32,049 bases of DNA from positions 1 to 32,049 of the forward strand of contig JAUNIR010000020.1 of the NCBI GenBank assembly GCA_030523345.1, read 5' to 3'. This DNA comes from Lachnospiraceae bacterium. Its GTDB lineage: Bacteria; Bacillota; Clostridia; Lachnospirales; Lachnospiraceae. Every line of letters begins with the position of its first letter. The first letter of the stretch is position 1. The notes beneath the pieces are model-generated. The model was not told the origin of the DNA. It did not search any database and saw nothing but the letters and a program-made list of their open reading frames with translations. The translations under genes and the position numbers were made by a program. This document shows, piece after piece, positions 29,285-32,049 of this stretch.

Positions 29285-29815
29285 TTATAATGTCTTATGG
29301 GTGCGAAGATACTTAAATGTTTCTTTTTCCCCATTCTCTGCAAGCATTCTAAGTAGGAATTCAAGCTTTTTGCTTGTTTCTTCATGAATTAGTATGCCAC
29401 GTTTATCACGGCCTTGTTCAAAGTACTTTAATGATGAATCATCTGTATATTTGTTACCTTGATATATCTTAGATGCAGCAACACGATCACAAAACATTTC
29501 TTTAATATATTTATCAGGCATAGGCATACCTTGCATTTGTCTTGTGGCATGATTGTAATCGGTCCAGTATTCGAAATGGTGCCTATTACGTCCTTTATGG
29601 TGCATCCATGCCTTACTATAACCTATGGATTCACGTTCGCCTTCGTTAGGGGATCTAGTTCCTTGGTAATATATTGCTCCAGGAATAAACTCGGTAGGAG
29701 AATACTTTGATAGGTCATGAAATAGTCCTTGAAATCCAATACCAGCTTTAAAACAGTGTATGATAACCGCATGCCTGTGTTTTGTAATTGTTTTGAAATG
29801 TTTGATTGGATGCAT
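29285..29815 (-). CDS. DUF5662 family protein
   Basis: 176 residues of unknown function, rich in histidine. Conserved features of the family: HPIKHFKTITKHRHAV at the N-terminus, GLFHDLSKYS (about 30-39, HD-like), WMHHKGRNRHHFEYW (about 70-84) and MPMPDKYIKEMFCDR. The HD and His clusters suggest a metal-binding HD-like fold, possibly a hydrolase; that is inference only. Minus-strand extended -10 TG-A-TATAAT is at 29855-29850. The Shine-Dalgarno AAGGA is about 12 bases from ATG, rather far. Confidence 0.85.
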   Translation of the reverse strand: MHPIKHFKTITKHRHAVIIHCFKAGIGFQGLFHDLSKYSPTEFIPGAIYYQGTRSPNEGERESIGYSKAWMHHKGRNRHHFEYWTDYNHATRQMQGMPMPDKYIKEMFCDRVAASKIYQGNKYTDDSSLKYFEQGRDKRGILIHEETSKKLEFLLRMLAENGEKETFKYLRTHKTL

Positions 29816-29911: not shown

Positions 29912-29938
29912 TTAAGTTTATTAAAAATATGCCGATAC
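29912..29938 (+). promoter_or_regulatory. Sigma-28 (flagellar sigma) promoter
   Basis: TTAAGTTT (29912-29919), 11-base spacer, GCCGATAC (29931-29938). Against the known FliA consensus TAAAGTTT-N11-GCCGATAA it matches 14 of 16 bases with the exact spacer. No sigma-A promoter competes nearby. Transcription start expected near 29944. Confidence 0.85.
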
Positions 29939-29959
29939 AAAAGAAAACATATATTGTCT

Positions 29960-29983
29960 AAAAGTGAAAAGGAGTTCACTTTT
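29960..29983 (+). promoter_or_regulatory. Leader hairpin with AAGGAG hexaloop, candidate CsrA site
   Basis: AAAAGTGAA (29960-29968) pairs with TTCACTTTT (29975-29983); the six-base loop is AAGGAG. CsrA binds ANGGA in hexaloops. The real Shine-Dalgarno AAGGAGGG (30005-30012) lies 22 bases downstream and could be the second site, as in the flagellin leader of B. subtilis. Confidence 0.6.
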
Positions 29984-30018
29984 TATATTAATCACGAAAG
30001 ATCCAAGGAGGGAACGTT

Positions 30019-30810
30019 ATGAGTGATATTTCAAACATCTATTCAAAAGTGGGTGCTACTTATAGTCAGCCTAAGGTAGCCAAAGTAAAAGATGATAAGG
30101 CTGAGATAAAAGAAAACACATCTAATAAAAAGATACCAGGTAAAACAGTAGGAGATGTAAAATTATCAGATAAGGCTCAGAAATACTATGAAGAGCTTAG
30201 AAGCAAATTTCATAATATGGAATTTGTATTAGTTAGTGAGGATCAGAAGGAAAATGCTAAAGCAAGAGCAGCCTCTTTTGCGCAGCATGGAAAGATGGTA
30301 GTTCTTATCGATGAAGCAAAAATTGAAAGAATGGCCGAGGATTCATCATATAGAGCTCAGTATGAAGGACTTATAGAAAAATCAGCAGCTAGTTTTGCAA
30401 GTTTCGCAGAATCTGTTGCAGCAACTGGTGCCAACGTCAAGGGATACGGCATGCAGGTTAATGATAATGGAACGACATCGTTTTTTGCTGTATTAGAAAA
30501 GTCTTCAGAAGCGCAGGCTAAGCGTATTGCGGAGAAGCGTGAAGAGAAAAGAGCAGAGAAGAAGGCTGAGGATAAAAAGGCAGCTAAGGAAAGACTTGAA
30601 GAGCGAGTAGAAGAAGCTAGAGAGTCAAATAAAGCAAATAAGGTAAAGTTAGAGTCAAATAAGAATAAACCTGAAGAAACAGTAATAACAGCAAATTCTC
30701 TTGAGGAGCTTCTTCAGAAAATACAAGATCACGTGCAGCTTGAAAAAAGTGATTCAGTTATTACAGATGCGGAGAAAACACTAGGTCAGAATATAGATTT
30801 TTCCGCATAA
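30019..30810 (+). CDS. DUF6033 family protein, first gene of sigma-28 operon
   Basis: 263 residues, function unknown, common in Lachnospiraceae. No Sec signal peptide or membrane helix. The N-terminus has VGATYS (11-16), also found as VGALYS in the next protein. A globular part (about 45-170) contains LRSKFHNMEFVLVSEDQ, MVVLIDEAKIERMAED and VKGYGMQVNDNGTTSFFAVL; a long Lys/Glu-rich helix (about 172-225) follows. Start fixed by AAGGAGGG seven bases upstream. Driven by a sigma-28-type promoter, so it probably acts with the flagellum. It may be an export substrate, assembly factor or motility regulator. Confidence 0.88.
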   Translation: MSDISNIYSKVGATYSQPKVAKVKDDKAEIKENTSNKKIPGKTVGDVKLSDKAQKYYEELRSKFHNMEFVLVSEDQKENAKARAASFAQHGKMVVLIDEAKIERMAEDSSYRAQYEGLIEKSAASFASFAESVAATGANVKGYGMQVNDNGTTSFFAVLEKSSEAQAKRIAEKREEKRAEKKAEDKKAAKERLEERVEEARESNKANKVKLESNKNKPEETVITANSLEELLQKIQDHVQLEKSDSVITDAEKTLGQNIDFSA

Positions 30811-30822
30811 AGGAGAATTCTT

Positions 30823-31884
30823 ATGGTTGTTGATTCATTAAGGTCTGTAGGTGCTTTGTATTCTAACAAACAGACCACTGGTTCTCAAAATAGATATGGA
30901 AATCCTGTAAATTCTTCATATGCTGAAGCACAGGAATCTAAGGCTCAGACAGTTAATAATATAAAGAGCCTTCTTCGTGGTGATAAAAACCAACGTAAGC
31001 CTGCATCAATTGCAGACTCTTCAATAAGCTATGCTCAGAAATTAAGAGAGCAACGTACAAATACAAAAAGTACAGCAAATGAACTTAAGCAGCTTAAGTA
31101 TAACAGTAAGAATATATCTAGTCAGATAAGATCTGCTAAAAAATCCATTAACGCAAAACAGGTTGCATCAAAAGCAAGACGAGAAGTTATACAGCTAAAG
31201 CTTAAAATGTCATCAGGAAAGTATGATAAGGAAGAGTTGCAGGCTGCTATTGAACATGCAAAATCAATGGAAAGAGCGGCAAATAAAAAGGCACGTCATT
31301 TAGAAGAAGAGGAGCTTATCAAAATCACTGATAAGCCTGCAGGTGCAGGTTTAACTGCTGCGGAACTTGAGGAAAAGTTAGAAAATGAATCTGAAGAGGC
31401 TATTAATAAATTCGAAGAGGAGATGGCAGCAAAAGAGGAAGAGCTTGAGCAGTTCTCCGAAGAGCAGATAGCTGAAATGGAGCAAGCAATTGCTGAAAAT
31501 ATGGAAGAAGTCCAGCAGATGATACAAGAATCTATGGAAGAGTCAATGGAGGATATGTCAGAAGACATATATGATCTTCTTGCTGAGGCTATGGAAGATA
31601 TGATGGAAGAAACTCTAGAGGGTCTCATGGATGGGATGATGGTTATTACTGACTATGAAATGACTGAAGAGGAATTCAAATCTTTTAAATTAAAACACAG
31701 AACATCAGAAGACAAATCTCTTGTGGAAGCTGATACAAAGTATTTAAAGGCATTATTCGATATTTATGATAAAAGAATGAGTGGCGGCGGTGGTTCTGGT
31801 GCAGATATTAGTGGAGCTTCATCGGCTTCAGTGAGCGTAGATACAGGCAATAATATACCAAATGTTGTGGATATAAGTATATAG
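30823..31884 (+). CDS. Uncharacterised coiled-coil protein, second gene of sigma-28 operon
   Basis: 353 residues; not recognised. Starts MVVDSLRSVGALYSN with the VGAxYS motif shared with the neighbour. Residues about 35-165 are basic and helical (SYAQKLREQRTNTK, IRSAKKSINAKQVASKARR). Residues about 185-285 are an extreme Glu/Met-rich helix (EEMAAKEEELEQFSEE, MEEVQQMIQESMEESMEDM, LMDGMMVITDYEMTEEE). A Gly/Ser-rich, Ala-rich low-complexity tail (SGGGGSGADISGASSASVSV) ends the protein. No signal peptide or membrane helix. AAAGGAG precedes ATG, 12 bases after the DUF6033 stop, so one operon. The layout suggests a structural or partner-binding role. Confidence 0.82.
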   Translation: MVVDSLRSVGALYSNKQTTGSQNRYGNPVNSSYAEAQESKAQTVNNIKSLLRGDKNQRKPASIADSSISYAQKLREQRTNTKSTANELKQLKYNSKNISSQIRSAKKSINAKQVASKARREVIQLKLKMSSGKYDKEELQAAIEHAKSMERAANKKARHLEEEELIKITDKPAGAGLTAAELEEKLENESEEAINKFEEEMAAKEEELEQFSEEQIAEMEQAIAENMEEVQQMIQESMEESMEDMSEDIYDLLAEAMEDMMEETLEGLMDGMMVITDYEMTEEEFKSFKLKHRTSEDKSLVEADTKYLKALFDIYDKRMSGGGGSGADISGASSASVSVDTGNNIPNVVDISI

Positions 31885-31956: not shown

Positions 31957-31995
31957 CAATCGTGCGTTGTGTGAAACAGATGCACACGAGTATTC

Positions 31996-32049
31996 GCCCA
32001 GATAGCTCAGTTGGTAGAGCAAAGGACTGAAAATCCTTGTGTCGCTGGT
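31996..32049 (+). tRNA. tRNA-Phe (GAA), cut by window end
   Basis: First 54 bases of a tRNA: acceptor GCCCAGA, D arm AGCTCAGTTGGTAGAGC, anticodon stem-loop AAGGA-CTGAAAA-TCCTT with anticodon GAA at 32029-32031, then the variable loop. The T arm and 3' acceptor lie beyond the window. Confidence 0.96.

Follow-up and report, generated by a model that had tools for sequence, protein, structure and literature searches.

FlxA and further sigma-28 genes of Escherichia coli are sigma-28-dependent accessory genes whose role is unknown. Fed and FspA of Campylobacter jejuni have sigma-28 promoters and are co-expressed with flagella, although their products are not flagellar parts, and the Feds (flagellar co-expressed determinants) are dispensable for motility (PMC9856085). 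In Bacillus subtilis, CsrA blocks the flagellar gene hag at two leader sites, one of them on the Shine-Dalgarno sequence, and FliW relieves the block (PMC7652899, PMC7430163). On the glgC transcript of E. coli, CsrA attaches to a hairpin loop and reaches across to the Shine-Dalgarno sequence; its homologue RsmE contacts a loop of the form ANGGAN (PMC7652899 / PMC7430163). Here we analysed a stretch of 32,049 nucleotides (nt) from Lachnospiraceae bacterium (assembly GCA_030523345.1, contig JAUNIR010000020.1, positions 1 to 32,049 of the forward strand; hereafter the window), in which a DUF6033 gene and a coiled-coil gene, referred to as gene 2, follow a sigma-28 (FliA/SigD) type promoter. Our preferred reading, to which we give a probability of about 0.55, is that these genes form a late flagellar operon under dual control of the flagellin type and that the DUF6033 protein is exported. 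The operon resembles hag in its GGA hairpin and Shine-Dalgarno GGA, with csrA and fliW in the genome; it differs from hag in that it does not encode flagellin, in that the action of CsrA is predicted, and in a hairpin-then-Shine-Dalgarno layout nearer that of glgC. It is likened by description to the FlxA group, on account of its predicted sigma-28 dependence and its lack of an assigned role. Fed and FspA, from a different phylum, are likewise likened by description rather than by sequence comparison, and the passages on them in PMC9856085 are silent on a CsrA leader.

The promoter (29912-29938, plus strand, as are all features of the operon) consists of the -35 element TTAAGTTT (29912-29919), the 11-nt spacer ATTAAAAATAT and the -10 element GCCGATAC (29931-29938). 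The first-pass annotation of the window had proposed a 14-of-16 match to the FliA consensus ahead of both genes, and this is what we found: TTAAGTTT-N11-GCCGATAC agrees with 14 of the 16 sigma-28 consensus bases and the two genes follow. The site also fits the Butyrivibrio sigma-28 consensus, TAAA-N16/17-MCGATAa (PMC3720852), with TTAA in place of TAAA and N16 spacing. Downstream lies a predicted leader RNA hairpin (29960-29983) with a stem of 9 base pairs (bp; 29960-29968 and 29975-29983) and the hexaloop AAGGAG (29969-29974), which is of the ANGGAN type. The Shine-Dalgarno sequence AAGGAGGG (30005-30012, read from the sequence) contains a GGA at 30007-30009, 36 nt downstream of the loop GGA, and precedes the DUF6033 gene (PF19498; 30019-30810; 263 amino acids (aa); Pfam scan E 2.7e-75), whose start is 80 nt downstream of the sigma-28-type site. 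By the positions of the open reading frames (ORFs), 12 nt separate this gene from gene 2 (30823-31884, 353 aa), whose putative ribosome-binding site AAGGAG (30810-30815) lies at the DUF6033 stop codon. Gene 2 encodes a helical, coiled-coil protein without a match above cut-off in Pfam or NCBIfam. The same genome encodes FliA, FlhA, FlgM, CsrA and FliW.

By itself, one 14/16 match exceeds chance only modestly and proves little. The window holds two sites with at most three mismatches against 0.46 expected, a count of two being reached in 7 of 100 shuffles; the whole genome has 58 such sites compared to 73 for the reversed pattern. Four sites in the genome have at most two mismatches, including the window site. 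The best of them, with one mismatch, immediately precedes flgM, which is a classical target of sigma-28, and the other two lie ahead of genes without a flagellar look and may be chance. What gives the window site its significance is that relatives have a site at the same position. The comparison loci were the best 80 of at least 398 DUF6033 relatives from one genome scan, 78 of which had enough upstream DNA. With the first-pass consensus and a score of at least 12/16, sites were found in 38 of the 78 loci, compared to 7 of 78 for the reversed pattern and ~5% of 1253 other ORFs. A refined pattern (a regular expression), picked after inspecting sites in the same 78 loci, was found in 49 of them, compared to 21/797 other genes, 28/1560 shuffles and 1/78 reversed. 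On loci that had played no part in choosing the pattern, it detected a site ahead of flgM in 27 of 29 cases (30 loci, minus that of the window's genome, whose site is already in the refined-pattern count) and ahead of 10 of 21 gene-2 relatives lying away from DUF6033. Directly behind DUF6033, only 1 of 9 gene-2 relatives had a site, a low rate that is expected if gene 2 is co-transcribed with DUF6033. Sites also precede the second DUF6033 gene of the window's genome and the DUF6033-gene-2 pair of a congener (G162). Promoter conservation, which the first-pass annotation had put forward as a check, thus holds both for DUF6033 and for unlinked gene 2, and the operon has the mark of a class III flagellar gene, a sigma-28-type promoter at a conserved upstream place.

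The leader hairpin is also conserved. Counting ANGGAN loops on stems of at least 5 bp and at most 120 nt from the start, we found hairpins in 51 of the 78 DUF6033 leaders, compared to a mean of 0.5 and a maximum of 3 in dinucleotide shuffles, and in 7 of 817 other genes (6.0 in their shuffles). When all 64 triplets were counted in A-N-XYZ-N loops, GGA gave 51 hairpins in the DUF6033 leaders and the remaining 63 gave 32 combined. A looser, earlier count had given 41/78 for DUF6033 and 79/812 for other genes. Hairpins were also detected in 19 of 29 leaders of a second, partly overlapping DUF6033 set (searched to +45; one of 30 dropped), in 12 of 21 unlinked gene-2 leaders (searched to +30) and in 14 of 28 flagellin leaders (2 of 30 dropped, no start having been found). 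The flgM leaders mostly lack it (2/29 have one), which sets flgM apart from DUF6033 despite the sigma-28 promoter that both share. Judged from these sequences, the predicted hairpin, on which the first-pass annotation was silent, is a more specific link to flagellin than the promoter. Of the 78 DUF6033 loci, 40 carry both signals, with the hairpin downstream of the promoter in all 40, whereas none of 804 other genes at these loci carries both. The stems vary, with 34 distinct 5-nt arms among the 51; A-U predominates at pairs 1 and 2, and each of the six standard pair types appears at pairs 3-5. In L061, the closest named relative, the hairpin has the same inner stem as in the window, and G162 has one with a different stem. 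In six of the 51 hairpins the loop ends just 8-16 nt before the assumed start; either the loop contains the Shine-Dalgarno sequence itself or the start was set too early. The window leader therefore has the features of a CsrA-repressed mRNA, an ANGGAN hairpin and a Shine-Dalgarno GGA in a genome with csrA and fliW, and from the glgC and hag models (PMC7652899) the Shine-Dalgarno GGA is the likely second CsrA contact. The csrA and fliW genes lie side by side in the flagellar locus, which runs flgM, flgK, a flagellin-N-domain gene (flgL by place), the fliW/csrA pair, and fliD-like and fliS-like genes.

Comparable elements were seen at several other places. The contig of this flagellar locus (L356, contig C164), read on the minus strand, has in its last 300 bases a sigma-28 site and, after it, two ANGGAN hairpins, of which the second holds a Shine-Dalgarno-like AAGGAG; the element lies behind the fliD- and fliS-like genes and ahead of a gene beyond the contig end, and is perhaps a flagellin leader cut by the assembly. 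The second DUF6033 gene of this genome (L208:1943-3032, contig C46) is an open ORF with its sigma-28 site 262 nt upstream. In G162, a run of small consecutive genes (L290:352-3501), mostly of no family and including one divergent DUF6033 (E 8.4e-9), has a sigma-28 site, and three ANGGAN hairpins each precede a different gene of the run. Near-perfect inverted repeats of 18-20 bp with GGA in the loop were found ~100 nt before genes of family c88 (L096:8931 and L105:8802); these could be terminators.

To compare the distribution of the genes with that of flagella, we surveyed 250 Lachnospiraceae genomes from 249 genera, each at least 90% complete. FlhA was detected in 125 genomes at E 0.001, unconvincingly in two of these (G085 and G229), and FliA was above cut-off in 123; FlhA without these two, joined with FliA, gave a flagellar set of 125. 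DUF6033 was present in 81 genomes (80 above cut-off). The first-pass annotation had held that its flagellar proposal would fall if the gene pair were common without fliA. All 81 DUF6033 genomes have FlhA or FliA and 78 have both, the exceptions being G033, without FliA, and G197 and G229, without convincing FlhA; DUF6033 was found in 0 of the 125 non-flagellar genomes, and the proposal was thus not refuted. The gene-2 family, searched with a profile of eight sequences, was present in 39 genomes, all of them flagellar and 37 with DUF6033. The description of the genes as a two-gene unit stands for the window, where they are adjacent, and does not extend to an obligate pair, as gene 2 occurs in only 39 of 250 genomes and adjoins DUF6033 in 9 of the 30 gene-2 loci examined. 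Similarly, the proposed Lachnospiraceae module is indeed found in that family, and DUF6033 extends to a small number of further families in the phylum. A sample of 299 genomes from the phylum had 11 DUF6033 matches: four in the same family (the window's genome included), four outside it above cut-off and three outside it below cut-off. All four genomes above cut-off have FlhA; of the three below, one has FlhA, one has none and one has a weak match only. Single genomes have up to eight DUF6033 matches.

Collectively, these results suggest that the operon is very probably late-flagellar and linked to sigma-28, and its leader is a probable CsrA target; export of the DUF6033 protein is about evenly balanced. 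Our estimates for the preferred reading and for its nearest competitor, discussed below, derive from these three judgements. We infer that sigma-28 and CsrA act on the operon as follows. Sigma-28 (FliA) would read the promoter at 29912-29938, and transcription by sigma-28 would turn the operon on only once FlgM has been exported through the finished hook. Bound to both the hairpin and the Shine-Dalgarno sequence, a CsrA dimer would keep ribosomes off until FliW, released by flagellin export, removes CsrA and allows translation; gene 2 would be expressed by co-transcription. The DUF6033 protein, with a predicted disordered, FlgM-like N-terminus of 40 residues, would then pass the flagellar export channel and work at or beyond the filament. 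If it is exported, its place of action is most likely the filament or the cell surface.

Several observations on the control signals, and others on export given in the next paragraph, weigh against this reading. Start codons in the comparison loci were assigned mechanically. The site pattern is missing in 29 of the 78 DUF6033 loci, the hairpin in 27 and both in 18. The aligned site of L061 is decayed and reads TTAATTAT / GCCGAAAT. Among four DUF6033 loci outside the family, one has a site close upstream and none has an ANGGAN hairpin. Across the genome, the sigma-28 pattern shows no excess (19 compared to 28 reversed), and in the 11 genomes of the genus examined, each of the other 10 has more patterns than its reversed control. 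The whole window leader does not fold with unusual stability (z -1.19). The second DUF6033 gene of the genome has no ANGGAN hairpin, and of four flagellin loci examined there (from seven Flagellin_N matches) only one has a leader hairpin. Finally, 44 of the 125 flagellar genomes are without DUF6033; DUF6033 is therefore not needed for a flagellum, and these genomes fit dispensability only indirectly.

The alternative that survives best keeps the same dual control and has the proteins stay inside the cell as cytosolic regulators, chaperones or modulators of the motor or of export, matched to flagellin flux; we consider it a serious possibility that falls clearly short of an even chance. The described target of CsrA-FliW control is flagellin, which is exported (PMC7652899), and this argues for export. 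So does the structure model of the DUF6033 protein (predicted local distance difference test score, pLDDT, 78), in which residues 1-40 are of low confidence and, as in FlgM (PF04316), rich in serine, threonine, asparagine and glutamine. Unlike FlgM, the protein has an ordered alpha/beta core (residues 42-160, high confidence), followed by a charged helix and a C-terminal strand-helix, and no counterpart was found among solved structures. In the gene-2 protein, the conserved core covers roughly residues 89-167 and 291-312, and the ends are of low confidence. When 797 ORFs were ranked with a profile of 28 FlgM N-termini, DUF6033 came within the top 0.25% and gene 2 within the top 0.13%. The area under the curve (AUC) for the FlgM-like score of the family was 0.875 against other ORFs and fell to 0.62 against the family's own scrambled N-termini, so the resemblance is mostly one of composition. 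A Pfam scan of the window protein gave only DUF6033 above cut-off and no FlgM domain, and it is thus not a member of the FlgM family. In a check for Sec signals, the highest 19-aa hydropathy values were 0.81 and 0.50. The DUF6033 protein also has no cysteine and no tryptophan. Cysteine is absent from 72 of 80 DUF6033 proteins, compared to 17 of 320 size-matched ORFs, and from the core in all 66 aligned sequences (the window protein and 65 of the 80 loci, 15 near-duplicates or doubtful starts having been left out), compared to 124 of 516 comparable background windows. Among background ORFs of low hydrophobicity, 3/52 lack cysteine, and 3/14 when also charged. FlgN is a cytosolic chaperone, and 24 of 29 first genes after flgM lack cysteine, or 24 of 27 when two that are not flgN by look are set aside. 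The parts of FlgK that we saw often contain cysteine, as do 6 of 7 gene-2 relatives. Because cytosolic FlgN matches the scarcity and FlgK often does not, cysteine content does not discriminate export, and we dropped it as proof.

The neighbours of DUF6033 were also examined. A cluster of short proteins (c4, with L111:6617-7453) lies near DUF6033 in 10 of 80 loci; the tested member has a FliD_C-like end (E 2.7e-9), and some c4 proteins begin with MRITTQML, a start that we take to be FlgL-like. FliS was found in one locus (E 2.7e-14), flagellin by look in three, and other coiled-coil partners also occur. Profile comparison among the partner families showed no relation. A profile match between DUF6033 and family c3 (E 1.5e-5) fell in a charged coil and was not trusted.

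An improbable alternative accepts sigma-28 control and takes the GGA hairpin as a transcript stabiliser or ribosome standby site rather than a CsrA target. Many of the stems are longer than the four pairs or fewer of most selected E. coli CsrA ligands (PMC7652899), and the leader had no Rfam family match above cut-off. A stabiliser or standby site accounts poorly for an ANGGAN loop kept in 51 of 78 leaders while the stem varies freely, and for its presence in half of the flagellin leaders, flagellin being the described Gram-positive CsrA target; csrA and fliW are also both present in the genome.

That the genes are merely a lineage marker kept with flagella by descent, the site and hairpin being chance features of the leader, is very unlikely and largely refuted by our counts: although across the genome a lone 14/16 match is no rarity, the gyrB tree (73 of 80 searched genomes, each having a full gyrB match among those listed above cut-off; the window's genome is not one of them) is poorly resolved (17/70 inner branches starred) and the underpowered pair test on supported branches stayed above 0.05 (8 pairs, mean 3.8 the same way, 0 opposite, median p 0.125), the best tree needs at least 17 changes for each trait, all 1387 kept simulations of DUF6033 evolution unlinked to flagella left DUF6033 on non-flagellar tips (mean 10.3, minimum 1), and neither the hairpin excess over shuffles nor the absence of paired signals from other genes of the same loci fits chance.

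Around the operon, a divergent DUF5662 gene (29285-29815, minus strand) lies upstream, and a similar divergent gene is at the same place in L061. Positions 31995-32049 resemble the first part of a tRNA gene that runs past the end of the window; ARAGORN reports none.

No paper in the library searched mentions DUF6033 or PF19498, and with the operon described here this Pfam family of unknown function gains a testable role and timing. More broadly, and as a tentative proposal that we rate a little short of even, DUF6033 and its partner families may be a large undescribed class of non-flagellin flagellar cargo in gut commensals, with up to eight DUF6033 matches per genome, controlled by sigma-28 and CsrA-FliW, exported, and active at the filament surface or towards neighbours and host. 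A second protein class under the same checkpoint would escape flagellin-centred studies. Together, these results suggest that CsrA-FliW control in Gram-positive bacteria extends past flagellin.
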